Origin: an uncultured Flavobacteriales bacterium
GTDB lineage: Bacteria; Bacteroidota; Bacteroidia; Flavobacteriales; Flavobacteriaceae
DNA length: 64,000 bases
NCBI GenBank assembly: GCA_913058295.1
Contig: CAJXRD010000001.1
Coordinates: 62,001 to 126,000, forward strand
Reading direction: 5' to 3'
How positions within the stretch are numbered: the stretch's first letter is position 1; the number at the start of each line of letters is the position of its first letter. Shown piece after piece: positions 14,470 to 17,863 of this stretch. Below the pieces are notes generated by a model. It did not search any database. It was not told the origin of the DNA and saw only the letters and a program-made list of their open reading frames with translations. Both the position numbers and the translations under genes were made by a program.

Positions 14470-14562
14470 TTAAATGTAAAAGGGCACTTTCGCGCCCTAA
14501 TACTTAAAATTGGATTCAATCAACCAACCAATTTTAATCAATCAACTTAAACAACTAATCAT
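14470..14562 (-). ncRNA. Candidate small RNA 1 (tandem copy A)
   Basis: Predicted transcript of about 85-93 nt on the minus strand. It starts 4-6 nt after the -7 element TAATTTTG (14567-14574). It has a 5' single-stranded part rich in TTGATTGA, a stem AAAATTGG/CCAATTTT (14506-14513 with 14528-14535) around a 14-nt loop containing GGTTGATTGA, and ends in a terminator hairpin with a GAAA tetraloop (14481-14498). The same unit recurs 180 bp away (14651-14742) with about nine mismatches in 124 aligned positions and no gap. Longest reading frame after the first ATG is six codons, so not coding. No known RNA family recognised. Confidence 0.62.
14477..14498 (-). terminator. Terminator of candidate sRNA 1
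   Basis: Minus-strand stem of seven pairs (14481-14487 with 14492-14498; one G-U pair) closed by a GAAA tetraloop. The immediate T-tail is only TTT before ACA, but a second run of eight T follows at 14462-14469. Confidence 0.7.
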
Positions 14563-14629
14563 AGCCCAAAATTACAACCACAAGCAGGTTTATTTTATGA
14601 CATCGCATGTCACTGGGAAAACTTTAACA
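14506..14629. repeat. Direct repeat, copy 1 of 2 (period 180 bp)
   Basis: A 124-bp block repeated without gaps at 14686-14809. It contains the sRNA stem-loop, its 5' end, the promoter and the palindrome box. About nine substitutions separate the copies. None fall in the palindrome or in the 8-bp stem, while the two terminators just outside the block differ. This is a gene duplication under constraint, not a random repeat. Confidence 0.88.
14567..14612 (-). promoter_or_regulatory. Box-dependent promoter of candidate sRNA 1
   Basis: Palindrome TGACATCGCATGTCA at 14598-14612 (centre 14605). On the minus strand TAATTTTG, a perfect TAnnTTTG, begins at 14574, 31 nt from the centre. No TTG lies 17-20 nt upstream of the -7, so the usual -33 element is missing and the box sits where a class II activator would touch RNA polymerase (about -42). 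Confidence 0.65.
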
Positions 14630-14650
14630 ACTTATATAAAGTTCTATGTA

Positions 14651-14680
14651 AAAAAAAAGCGGACGCTCTCACATCCGCTT
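14651..14680 (-). terminator. Terminator of candidate sRNA 2
   Basis: Minus-strand stem AAGCGGATG with CGTCCGCTT (14672-14680 with 14657-14665; one G-U pair), a 6-nt loop, then at least eight T. A strong intrinsic terminator. Confidence 0.85.
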
Positions 14681-14742
14681 TTATAAAAATTGGCATCAAT
14701 CAACCTACCAATTTTAACCTATCAACTTAAACAACTAATCAT
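14651..14742 (-). ncRNA. Candidate small RNA 2 (tandem copy B)
   Basis: Sister of candidate sRNA 1, about 92 nt on the minus strand. The -7 is TATTTTTG (14747-14754). The stem AAAATTGG/CCAATTTT (14686-14693 with 14708-14715) is conserved; its 14-nt loop also contains GGTTGATTGA although both loop ends have changed. It ends in a terminator with a different stem sequence (14657-14680) and a run of eight to nine T. Conservation of structure with change in the terminator sequence is the best argument that both are real RNA genes. Confidence 0.64.
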
Positions 14743-14809
14743 AGCCCAAAAATACAACCACAAGTAAGTTTGTTTTATGACATCGCATGTCACTGGGAAA
14801 ACTTTAACA
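14686..14809. repeat. Direct repeat, copy 2 of 2 (period 180 bp)
   Basis: Partner of the block at 14506-14629; see there for the comparison. Confidence 0.88.
14747..14792 (-). promoter_or_regulatory. Box-dependent promoter of candidate sRNA 2
   Basis: The palindrome TGACATCGCATGTCA recurs at 14778-14792 (centre 14785), identical to copy 1. TATTTTTG on the minus strand begins at 14754, again 31 nt from the centre. No -33 TTG at the normal distance. Confidence 0.65.
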
Positions 14810-14823
14810 GTTTGTTGTAAAGT

Positions 14824-14850
14824 AAAAAAAGCGGACGCTTTCGCGCCCGC
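14824..14850 (-). terminator. Intrinsic terminator of the unknown operon
   Basis: Eight-pair stem (14831-14838 with 14843-14850; one G-U pair), GAAA loop on the minus strand, tail of seven T at 14824-14830. Confidence 0.88.
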
Positions 14851-14930
14851 ATACTTAAAATTGGGGATATTAAGTAGTCTATTATAGGATACTTAAATCA
14901 ATTTATCAACTACAAACAATTGTACCTCAA
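14824..14930 (-). ncRNA. Terminator-containing 3' RNA region, relative of the two sRNAs
   Basis: On the minus strand this follows the stop of the 165-residue unknown gene at 14968. It has a 7-bp stem TTAAGTA/TACTTAA (14870-14876 with 14890-14896), then CCCCAATTTTAAGTAT and an 8-bp terminator stem with a GAAA tetraloop (14831-14850) and seven T. The CCAATTTTAAGTAT plus GGGCGCGAAAG stretch matches the 3' part of candidate sRNA 1. Either it is the operon's 3' UTR, possibly processed into a third sRNA, or a degenerate third gene copy. No palindrome box is present upstream. Confidence 0.5.
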
Positions 14931-14967: not shown

Positions 14968-15465
14968 TTAAACTCCTATTGCATTTAATTTATTATAATC
15001 TTCTTTTTCAAATGAACTTTGGTTTAAAACTTTATAAGAGTTTCCTTTATAATCTTTAATTATTTCAGTTTTAAAGCCTTTAATTTTTTCTTTTTTATAT
15101 ACTTTTTGTTCGTATTCCAAACTGTTTAACCGTTCACCAACTTCATCTAAATAATCACCAAAAAGGACCGTTCCAGAGTTGTTGGAGTTAAACTCATTAC
15201 TTGAATAATAAATATTTAAAATAGGAATTTTAAAGCCTGAAATGTTTTTATTAATGACTTCGGTTATTGATAGTTTTAAATGGTTAGTCGTTTTACTTGC
15301 GAGATCAAACACATGCCGAAAACTTTCGTATTTATTTATTACATCACTTCGATTTTGATGTGATTTTTTTGAATTAAAAACATAATTAGATGTTTCAAAA
15401 AATGTCTTTCCTTTTTTTTCAAAAACCTGATAAACAACTTCTAGTTTGTAATTTATTTTCATCAT
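14968..15465 (-). CDS. Unknown protein, 165 residues
   Basis: I do not recognise the family. No signal peptide or membrane segment; lysine- and asparagine-rich (LKLSITEVINKNI, FNSNNSGTVLFGDYLDEVGERLNSLEYEQKV), so probably a soluble cytoplasmic alpha/beta protein. Last gene of a minus-strand operon: it begins 3 bp after the stop of the 80-residue gene at 15468 and ends before the terminator at 14824-14850. The operon's promoter carries the palindrome box, so it probably shares regulation with the two sRNAs just downstream. Confidence 0.7.
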   Translation of the reverse strand: MMKINYKLEVVYQVFEKKGKTFFETSNYVFNSKKSHQNRSDVINKYESFRHVFDLASKTTNHLKLSITEVINKNISGFKIPILNIYYSSNEFNSNNSGTVLFGDYLDEVGERLNSLEYEQKVYKKEKIKGFKTEIIKDYKGNSYKVLNQSSFEKEDYNKLNAIGV

Positions 15466-15467
15466 TT

Positions 15468-15710
15468 TTAAACAGCGATTAATTCTTCAGCAATACTTGA
15501 TTCTTCTTGAGTAAGGGTCTCCCCCTTTAAAGAAGTTAATAGCTCTTTTAACTTTTCTGTACTTTCCATTGGGACCGTTTCCGAAATAAAATCTATTTCC
15601 ATTAAAAGGTTTCTAACACTTCTTATGGTCTTTAATTTTATTGGATTTTGTACCGGGTTATTTACAGTATTATATTCTATTATTAAAAGTTTGGTTTGTA
15701 TCATAGACAC
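15468..15710 (-). CDS. Small unknown protein, paralogue 2 (80 residues)
   Basis: Soluble, mostly helical by composition. It aligns end to end with the product of 15754-15996: shared spacing of LL/LE-EY near the N-terminus, IR/IKKVxxLL in the middle, LTxLKG/LTAIKG and a closing L..E....EE. So the two are diverged tandem duplicates. No family recognised. Lies 43 bp after its paralogue and 2 bp before the 165-residue gene, implying one transcript. Confidence 0.7.
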   Translation of the reverse strand: MSMIQTKLLIIEYNTVNNPVQNPIKLKTIRSVRNLLMEIDFISETVPMESTEKLKELLTSLKGETLTQEESSIAEELIAV

Positions 15711-15753: not shown

Positions 15754-15996
15754 TTAATTGTTAACATTAAAAATTTCTTCAATTAAATCCAGCTCTAAAT
15801 AGTTTAAGGGCCTTCCTTTAATTGCTGTTAATTTTTTTAAAATGATTTCTTTTTTTCCTTCATCTAAATCATCTATATCTAAATCTGCCGATAATAATAA
15901 TTCATTCACTTTCTTAATCGCTTCAAGCCTTTTACCGTCTTCTTCAATACGCTTTTTCACCATATATTCTAGCAAGACTAAATTTCTACGTATCAT
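15754..15996 (-). CDS. Small unknown protein, paralogue 1 (80 residues)
   Basis: First gene of the three-gene unknown operon. Starts MIRRNLVLLEYMVKKRIEEDG and ends in NYLELDLIEEIFNVNN; acidic centre (ADLDIDDLDEGKK). Helical, no membrane segment. Paralogue of the next gene downstream. It is driven by a promoter with the -7 element TACTTTTG and the palindrome box, and is divergent from the HTH regulator pair, an arrangement often seen for a regulator and its target. Confidence 0.7.
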   Translation of the reverse strand: MIRRNLVLLEYMVKKRIEEDGKRLEAIKKVNELLLSADLDIDDLDEGKKEIILKKLTAIKGRPLNYLELDLIEEIFNVNN

Positions 15997-16011: not shown

Positions 16012-16058
16012 CAAAAGTATTGGAGAGTCAAAACATGTAATATGACATTCAATGTCAT
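16012..16058 (-). promoter_or_regulatory. Box-dependent promoter of the unknown operon; divergent operator
   Basis: ATGACATTCAATGTCAT (16042-16058) is a perfect palindrome with 7-bp arms, centre 16050. On the minus strand TACTTTTG, a perfect TAnnTTTG, begins at 16019, again 31 nt from the centre, and lies 16-23 nt before the ATG at 15996. The same palindrome is 50 bp upstream of the plus-strand HTH gene, for which only a weaker TAATTTTA (16077-16084) is seen. It could therefore repress the HTH gene while activating the operon. Confidence 0.65.
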
Positions 16059-16107: not shown

Positions 16108-16983
16108 ATGAAAAAATATACATCTTTAGGAGAATTAATTATAGATTTCCGAAGCTTGAACAACACATCACAAGCAGATCTTGCCGCAAAATTTGATGTA
16201 GATATTCGCACTATTATTAGGTGGGAAAAAAACGAAACCTTATTAAAACCCGATAAGGAAGAAGAAATGGTAAACATTACTTTTATCCCATATCAAGTTA
16301 TTCGTAATTTAAACGCACCAGTTTCCATACCAATATATTATGATTTTGATTTAAGAAAATATTCTTTAAGCGAATTATCAAATGAATTGCCAGACCCAAA
16401 CTGGATGAAATCTAAAATGGAGTATGGTACAGAAAGGCTAAGAGCTATAAAACATGATTCAGATATAGAAGATATTATTAAATGTTCATTAGTTCAAAAA
16501 CACATTTCAAAACCAATTCGAAAGGACTTAATTTATAAAGCTATTGAATTTCTTCCTGAATTAAACTTAATTATTTTTGACACCTCTGGTTATTATTCTG
16601 GACATTGTGTTTTTTTTCCTTTAAGCCAAAAGACTTATCAAAAAATTAGAAACAAAACACTTAAAGAAGAAGACTTGTCTGAACACAACTTTGTGAATTA
16701 TAAAAACGAAGAAACCCCTGTGTTTTATGCATATGATATTAATGCAGATTGTAATGAAAACATTTATTATATAACAGGAGCGATCATGAAGTTTCTTAAA
16801 GAACTGTCAAATAAAAAACATTTATTCGCTAGTTATACCTCGAGACATGATACTTATGAAATAAATGAAAAATTGGGCGCCACTATGGTGTGGGAAGATA
16901 AACAAGAACAAGCTAAAATAAAAAGTAAAGCACCCCCAAGACTTTATGAACATAATTTTACTGCATTTTTAGAAAGCAAATAA
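16108..16983 (+). CDS. HTH (XRE-type) regulator with GNAT-like C-terminal domain, copy 1
   Basis: 291 residues. An N-terminal helix-turn-helix (about residues 18-60) has the pattern TSQADLAAKFDVDIRTIIRWEKNE of XRE/Cro-type DNA-binding domains. After a linker (70-125), the C-terminal half has a strand order resembling an acetyltransferase fold: ELNLIIFDTSGYYSGHCVFFPLS, then VFYAYDINAD, a helix AIMKFLKEL, and YTSRHDTYEINEKLG. This domain might sense an acyl-CoA or modify a partner; that is inference. The next gene is a paralogue 7 bp away. Divergent from the small unknown operon, with the palindrome box between them. Confidence 0.72.
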   Translation: MKKYTSLGELIIDFRSLNNTSQADLAAKFDVDIRTIIRWEKNETLLKPDKEEEMVNITFIPYQVIRNLNAPVSIPIYYDFDLRKYSLSELSNELPDPNWMKSKMEYGTERLRAIKHDSDIEDIIKCSLVQKHISKPIRKDLIYKAIEFLPELNLIIFDTSGYYSGHCVFFPLSQKTYQKIRNKTLKEEDLSEHNFVNYKNEETPVFYAYDINADCNENIYYITGAIMKFLKELSNKKHLFASYTSRHDTYEINEKLGATMVWEDKQEQAKIKSKAPPRLYEHNFTAFLESK

Positions 16984-16990
16984 TGGTCTA

Positions 16991-17863
16991 ATGAAAAAAT
17001 ACATCTCCTTAGGAGAGTTACTAATTGGTTTTCGAAACCTAAACAACATATCACAAGCAGATCTTGCAGCAAAATTTGATGTTGATATTCGTACAATTAT
17101 TAGGTGGGAAAAAAACGAAACCTTATTAAAATCTGAAAAGGAAGAGGAAATTGCAAACATAACTTTTATACCAAATCAGGTTATTAGAAATCTAAATACT
17201 ACGAATCCGATTCATACTTATTATGATTTTAACCTAAGAAAATATTCTCTATCACCTTTGTTTCAAAAACTACCTGAAGTAAGATGGATTAAAGAAAGTA
17301 TAGACAGTATTCACAATAATATAAGGCCCATACAAACCGAAAAAGATATTGAAAATATTATCAGATATACACAATTACAGGGGGATTCATTAAAATCAAT
17401 CTCTCGGCAATTAATACGAGAAACTGCAAGAATTTTTCCTGAACTTAATTTAATTGTAACGGATGTACTTGGGAATTATGCCGGTCATAGTTTATACTTT
17501 CCATTGAGTTTTGAAACCTATAAAAAAATTAAAAATCAAAAACTAATGGAAATTGATTTAACCATTAGTGATTTAGTAAATTATAAAATGCAAACTCCCC
17601 CGGTTTTTTATTGCCATAGTATAACGGCAGATTCAAACGAAAACTTTTTTATTATAATTGGGGCAGTCTTAAAGTTTTATAGGGACACTGCCATAGATAA
17701 AAACTATATTTATTCTATAATAACCTCTAGGCACGATTCGTACGACATGAACAAAAGTTTAGGAGTTGCTCTAATTTGGGAAGACCTCGATCAACAAAAA
17801 AAACTAAATTTAAAGGTCCCGCCAAGACTTTACGAAGGTAATTTCACAGAATTTTTAAAATAA
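16991..17863 (+). CDS. HTH (XRE-type) regulator with GNAT-like C-terminal domain, copy 2
   Basis: 290 residues, paralogue of the previous gene along its full length. The HTH part is the most conserved: SQADLAAKFDVDIRTIIRW is identical in both, and a 36-nt DNA stretch within it is also identical, which points to a recent duplication or gene conversion. The C-terminal domains have diverged but keep FPLS.TY.KI, ITADSNEN, SRHDSYDMNKSLG and the ending PPRLYEGNFTEFL. Probably co-transcribed with copy 1 and possibly forms a heterodimer with it. Ends at a strong bidirectional terminator. Confidence 0.72.
   Translation: MKKYISLGELLIGFRNLNNISQADLAAKFDVDIRTIIRWEKNETLLKSEKEEEIANITFIPNQVIRNLNTTNPIHTYYDFNLRKYSLSPLFQKLPEVRWIKESIDSIHNNIRPIQTEKDIENIIRYTQLQGDSLKSISRQLIRETARIFPELNLIVTDVLGNYAGHSLYFPLSFETYKKIKNQKLMEIDLTISDLVNYKMQTPPVFYCHSITADSNENFFIIIGAVLKFYRDTAIDKNYIYSIITSRHDSYDMNKSLGVALIWEDLDQQKKLNLKVPPRLYEGNFTEFLK

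Follow-up and report, generated by a model that had tools for sequence, protein, structure and literature searches.

The window analysed here, a 64,000-nt stretch of a contig from an uncultured Flavobacteriales bacterium, contains a 124-nt block that occurs twice (14506–14629 and 14686–14809) with 93% identity, the 180 bp period claimed in a preliminary description of the sequence being real. Each copy has the same layout on the minus strand, where a palindrome, TGACATGCGATGTCA, is followed after 23 bp by the element TAnnTTTG and then by approximately 90 nt that terminate in a hairpin with a T run. In unit 2, the palindromic box lies at 14778–14792 and the -7 element, TATTTTTG, at 14747–14754, 31 bp from the box centre; the small RNA predicted downstream (14651–14743, with a predicted start) carries its terminator at 14655–14682. 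Unit 1 is built likewise, with the box at 14598–14612, the -7 element TAATTTTG at 14567–14574, again 31 bp from the box centre, and a small RNA at 14475–14563, for which both start and end are predicted and whose terminator hairpin (14481–14498) is followed by an interrupted T run. Both boxes are exact palindromes, each being one of three such sites in the organism's own assembly. The perfect TAnnTTTG element described for each copy was recovered in both, on the minus strand, and the proposed activator-type box proved to be the strongest element of all. Directly upstream of the two boxes, a conserved GTTAAAGTTTTCCC-like element was observed (14618–14631 and 14798–14811), which occupies the same place in loci L083 and L091–L094 of the window's genus.

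Three terminator-like hairpins were found between 14400 and 16150 (14655–14682, 14481–14498 and 14831–14850), compared with a mean of 0.4 (sd 0.7) in shuffled sequences. Both units are also predicted to fold more stably than shuffled counterparts, with z-scores of -4.36 for unit 2 and -4.22 for unit 1. Two hairpins with GAAA loops had been pointed out and both exist, but only the one at 14481–14498 belongs to a repeat copy, while that at 14831–14850 ends a third unit. The AAAATTGG/CCAATTTT stem with its GGTTGATTGA loop, stressed in the preliminary description, is present in both copies. Apart from these, the AAAATTGG stem occurs in L098, the closest relative, and is absent from the other aligned members of the genus. 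The part retained by relatives in the window's genus is instead the terminator, in whose stem 5 of 8 pairs have changed on both sides. No ORF of at least 60 aa lies inside either unit, in line with the lack of coding potential noted earlier, though ORFs of 20–58 aa overlap units 1 and 2 on either strand, including minus-strand ones of 20–29 aa.

The third unit (14820–14905, minus strand) corresponds to the 3′ half and terminator (14831–14850) of an older sRNA, as judged by alignment with L083 and L091–L094, and has a fold z-score of -4.31. Compared with the intact single sRNA genes in those loci, it keeps CTACTTAATATCCCCAATTTT and the terminator but has lost the box and the -7 element, which are likewise gone from the third unit of L098. 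The older sRNA may thus have been replaced by the sibling pair.

The exact sequence TGACAT-N3-ATGTCA occurs at three places in the 3.07-Mb assembly, all of them in this cassette, with four more places at one mismatch. Two of the exact sites are the sRNA promoters, and the third (TGACATTGAATGTCA on the minus strand, 16043–16057) lies between the XRE-type regulator gene, which starts at 16108 on the plus strand, and a group of small-protein genes on the minus strand. At all three, the distance from the box centre to the first base of a perfect TAnnTTTG is 31 bp on the minus strand, the third such element being TACTTTTG at 16012–16019, in front of the presumed small-protein operon. The first gene of this operon, sp80a (15754–15996, minus strand), encodes a predicted three-helix protein of 80 aa with homologues in relatives (model pLDDT 88.8). 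It is followed on the same strand by sp80b (15468–15710), an ORF of 80 aa similar to sp80a, and by sp165 (14968–15465), an ORF of 165 aa for which no family was found. Other members of the window's genus have relatives of sp165, which in G017, the closest of these genomes, is broken across two frames (L074, 2819–3267). For the small proteins, no family was matched at a trustworthy score in Pfam, NCBIfam, PADLOC or PHROGs. A complete ORF of 60–110 aa was found close to the promoter at 41 of 53 regulator-divergent sites, and 32 of these ORFs were aligned with sp80b (33 rows; nine different-looking ones were left out). The resulting sp80 family is predicted to form three helices (pLDDT 88.8), and a fold search with it returned no relative (best E 0.63).

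The regulator gene is present in two plus-strand copies, 16108–16983 (291 aa) and 16991–17863 (290 aa), which are about 54% identical. A predicted structure (AlphaFold2 with a 33-row alignment, from which three homologues with a stop or of only partial length were left out; pLDDT 89.1) shows an XRE-type HTH at the N-terminus of copy 1, with a GNAT fold making up the C-terminal half. The C-terminal domain of the model superimposes on Naa50 (6z00) with Z 14.1 and an rmsd of 2.9 over 150 aligned residues, and Foldseek gave E 1.4e-4 against Ard1. Enzymes of the GNAT fold bind acyl-CoA through the motif Q/R-x-x-G-x-G/A, and this motif is missing past residue 150 in 32 of the 33 regulator rows, the sole match being at residue 266. 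The missing motif makes it more likely, judging from these sequences, that the C-terminal half of the regulator is a sensor rather than an enzyme. No relative of the regulator was matched among 50,697 phage and 72,556 plasmid records or in viral contigs, and no defence model was clearly matched, the PADLOC and PHROGs hits being weak and lying in the HTH part. In a phylum-wide profile search, 29 of 395 genomes matched at E 0.001, with full-length matches only in the organism's own genome and mainly the HTH part matched in the others. Two homologues look degraded, one in L015 with an in-frame TAG and one in L072, which has no HTH part.

When genomes of the family were compared, the composite promoter, its rigid spacing and its co-occurrence with the regulator gene all recurred, together with terminated non-coding units. 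The regulator is present in 24 of 397 sampled Flavobacteriaceae genomes, including G282, where the N-terminal part is missing, and G173, where a contig ends and the match comprises 43 residues. The exact composite GACAY-N3-RTGTC-N24-TANNTTTG was found in 23 of the 397 genomes, all within these 24, and in none of the 373 others (Fisher p 2e-36, a statistic that ignores shared ancestry; the two draws of 397 genomes were taken as identical, as their size and handles agree). The remaining regulator genome, G362, has the composite at one mismatch, while a reversed control pattern appeared once each in four of the 397 genomes, none of them regulator-bearing.

The spacing was assessed over 738 kb, comprising a stretch of the window and the regulator loci of 80 relatives retained out of 89, where the box occurs 113 times compared with once for the reversed pattern. 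TAnnTTTG stands at exactly 31 bp on one side of 103 of the 113 boxes, and on both sides of none; between 12 and 59 bp, no other distance was seen more than twice, and six of the ten boxes lacking TAnnTTTG at 31 bp carry TAnnTTTA there. The usual -33 TTTG, expected 17–21 bp upstream, is absent from all 118 sites picked by their -7 element with a box of up to one mismatch. The box stands where the -33 element should be, which would fit a class II activator. In 28 of the 81 loci there is no composite (up to one mismatch) directly divergent from the regulator; 65 loci have one somewhere in the analysed stretch and 16 have none. Some of the loci without one are short contigs or second copies. Decay of the block in relatives, which the preliminary description had named as evidence against small RNA genes, was seen for the AAAATTGG stem, lost beyond L098, while the box, the exact spacing, the -7 element and the terminators recur family-wide. 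This comparison supports the view that the two units are sibling small-RNA genes.

The boxed promoters of the 81 loci were further sorted by what lies downstream, and of 117 sites (the 118 less one, for length) 59 were coding and 58, spread over 42 loci, non-coding. Roughly one boxed promoter in two is followed by an ORF (counts from 41/77 to 58/117), and sRNAs are therefore not the sole output. A terminator was called for 36 of the 58 non-coding units and not for the other 22. A non-coding unit with a strong terminator within 190 nt followed 32 of the 117 boxed sites, compared with 37 of 574 box-less -7 sites (p 1e-9). In 20 stretches distant from the regulator, chosen from places with the composite, 27 sites were found; 19 are non-coding, and a terminator was called for 17 of the 19. 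Tandem non-coding units are also found elsewhere, 180, 180 and 188 bp apart in Aestuariibaculum sediminum (L132) and 181 bp apart in L200, from G347, a genome of the same genus as the Tamlana genome G141. Exact composites number 12 in G141 and 13 in G347, most of them away from the regulator. In these two genomes (L191–L200), the sRNA is present in many almost identical copies behind the composite promoter, dispersed genome-wide, and in L191 and L199 two sRNA copies lie on either side of a 200-aa ORF that itself has a boxed promoter.

No Rfam family was matched by the predicted RNAs: at gathering score, Rfam 15 returned only tRNAs in the window, and only tRNAs and one SAM riboswitch in 14 related loci, the sRNA units remaining unmatched, as the preliminary description had anticipated. 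The best sub-threshold match was L20_leader, at 27.8 bits compared with the required 58.7. The stretches preceding the terminators are C-poor (7.7% C compared with 17.9% G, from 28 of 47 units after removal of redundancy). Two 8-mers, TTAATAGC (11 of 28 units, 0.12 expected) and TTTTCATA (9 of 28, 0.24 expected), exceed the top 8-mer count of 200 shuffles (8; mean 5.5), while TTTGGTTA (8 units, 0.41 expected) and TTGATTGA (6 units, 0.28 expected) beat their own expectation but not the shuffle maximum of 8. The seed sequences vary from lineage to lineage. Two-sided changes were also found in the Aestuariibaculum terminator stem, at 3 of 10 pairs, and, at 8 of 15 pairs, in the closing stem of a class of approximately 200 nt that is represented by 13 sequences and occurs in Lutimonas and in uncultured genomes. 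Members of this structured class (L105 5841–6101, L113 5939–6199 and relatives) have the same composite promoter and a conserved TTAGACA, and no Rfam match was obtained for it in the loci scanned.

The sharing of TTAATAGC and TTTTCATA by lineages whose RNAs otherwise differ could mean that the RNAs act as a CsrB-like sponge, titrating an RNA-binding protein through repeated C-poor motifs (UUGAUUGA, GGUUAGUU and UUAAUAGC) with no pairing to mRNA, and sp80, whose genes stand behind the same type of promoter, could then be their partner. We consider this unlikely: sp80 has no similarity to known RNA-binding proteins, and pairing is favoured by TTTTCATA, which is complementary to a frequent type of gene start, TATGAAAA. 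It is highly improbable that the tandem boxes, multiplied close to the regulator, are operator decoys which titrate it while their transcripts are functionless, since decoys would need neither a -7 element at one exact distance nor terminators, and regulator-distant copies retain both. There is little to recommend reading the repeat as a merely duplicated terminator region which shields the downstream gene from read-through; the repeat does lie directly downstream of the small-protein operon, with three terminators, but both copies come with a box and a -7 element of their own, and other genera have such units far from any operon of this type. Least credible is that the units encode very short proteins, as coding sites elsewhere and the overlapping minus-strand ORFs might suggest, since no ORF of at least 20 aa starts and ends within either predicted transcript and the aligned units share no reading frame by eye.

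Possible targets of the sRNAs were searched for at several levels. Over 42 loci, cognate pairs of sRNA and regulator leader scored slightly ahead of swapped pairs (permutation fraction 0.0028, ignoring phylogeny). When the HTH leader was set against the remaining gene starts of its locus, no preference for it emerged over 38 loci (mean fraction 0.42, with 0.5 expected; 0.1 or below in six of the 38). The earlier suggestion that TTGATTGA is an antisense seed for this leader was therefore dropped, as was antisense action on the regulator's own leader in general. Genome-wide, the seed complement TCAATCAACCWACC was found with up to two mismatches at 28 + 23 places, the two sRNA genes included, compared with 25 + 27 for a reversed control.

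None of three individual candidates was established as a target. An (ATCA)n repeat leads into the ATG of a TPR/LuxR-type gene on another contig of the own genome (C32; L238, 1208–1267), with a similar repeat in G017, and may reflect phase variation or an sRNA target. At E 1e-60, this gene was found only in the own genome and G017 among 19 genomes of the genus. The second candidate, an ECF sigma gene with a leader matching that of unit 2's RNA, is present in 17 of the 19 genomes and shows no co-change; in genomes with other sRNAs, its leaders are alike except at the matching bases. Finally, a LytTR-type gene start in G367 matched with 2 mismatches of 20, but the reversed control also gave 4 + 2 hits.

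Taken together, the two units are probably sibling small-RNA genes in a local, activator-controlled regulon of the neighbouring XRE-GNAT regulator, judging from genome comparison. In this marine bacterium and its relatives, members of a single regulator family seem to turn on groups of short non-coding RNAs via a rigidly spaced DNA switch. The regulator would bind the palindrome, whose centre precedes the predicted start by approximately 43 bp and takes the position of the absent -33 element, and would there activate rather than repress, recruiting sigma-A polymerase to the -7 element at the fixed 31 bp in the style of a class II activator. A single signal, perhaps sensed by the GNAT-fold domain, would turn on transcription of both sRNAs together with the sp80a/sp80b/sp165 operon, whose genes would be co-transcribed. 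For the sRNAs, action in trans would be the most likely mode, with single-stranded stretches poor in C (UUGAUUGA, GGUUGGUU) pairing with the translation starts of mRNAs. A broader scheme, put forward tentatively, is that of a Flavobacteriaceae signalling module in which a one-component regulator of the XRE type, its GNAT-fold sensor being non-catalytic, has as its main output fast-evolving, multicopy, C-poor sRNAs, both tandem and dispersed, and an 80-aa helical protein, maybe their partner; acting at start codons, the RNAs might silence genes for surface or regulatory functions, among them genes with repeat-based (ATCA)n leaders that may be phase-variable.

The literature searches turned up no description of this regulator family, of the box-and-spacing rule or of these RNAs. 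Small RNA biology in the Bacteroidota is known chiefly from Bacteroides, and the present host group consists of widespread marine bacteria. Genome comparison here links a regulator with sets of predicted sibling sRNAs through an exactly searchable promoter, which offers a directly testable riboregulatory regulon; the rule of box, 31 bp and TAnnTTTG finds such candidate RNAs without RNA-seq, and the promoters make a clear candidate case of activator dependence without a -33 element.

Several similar non-coding units are predicted here behind one regulator-linked promoter, an arrangement of the csRNA and Qrr kind. LuxO, the activator of the Qrr genes, works through sigma-54, and unlike such sigma-54-type promoters, the present ones carry a TAnnTTTG -7 element. 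Nearer relatives by taxonomy can be compared by description. The FopS and GibS sRNAs of Bacteroides thetaiotaomicron, treated together with RbpB, belong to the same phylum, within which FopS is the closest working analogue, and, like the present units, are multicopy and paralogous; there are 14 FopS, which bind near start codons, and the excerpts of the source drawn on here describe canonical promoters with a transcriptional regulator termed unknown and, unlike in the present case, no box or adjacent regulator (PMC11697453). The sRNAs of Flavobacterium psychrophilum, including Rfp18, come from the same bacterial family and share the sigma-A -7 box TAnnTTTG, while no XRE-GNAT regulator, box or tandem siblings are described in the passages cited (PMC9723704).

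Closer in arrangement are the Qrr sRNAs of Vibrio, which, in the account cited, are multiple homologous sRNAs under a single activator, LuxO, a two-component response regulator whose own mRNA is also paired by Qrr (PMC4211561). The present regulator is in contrast a one-component protein, and feedback on it is unsupported here, its leader not being preferred locally. In streptococci, CiaR is described as driving several similar csRNAs of 87–151 nt, some tandem and some distal, parts of which are proposed to base-pair in the region of AUG start codons (PMC4507080, PMC4211561). The likeness lies in one transcription regulator with several similar sRNAs, some in tandem and some distal; CiaR is, however, a two-component response regulator, the present XRE-GNAT protein is predicted to recognise another box, and pairing by the present RNAs, which are predicted units, is putative. 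One regulator with several sibling sRNAs is a kind already known, and by analogy the predicted regulon would work like CiaR/csRNA or LuxO/Qrr, its closest working analogues.
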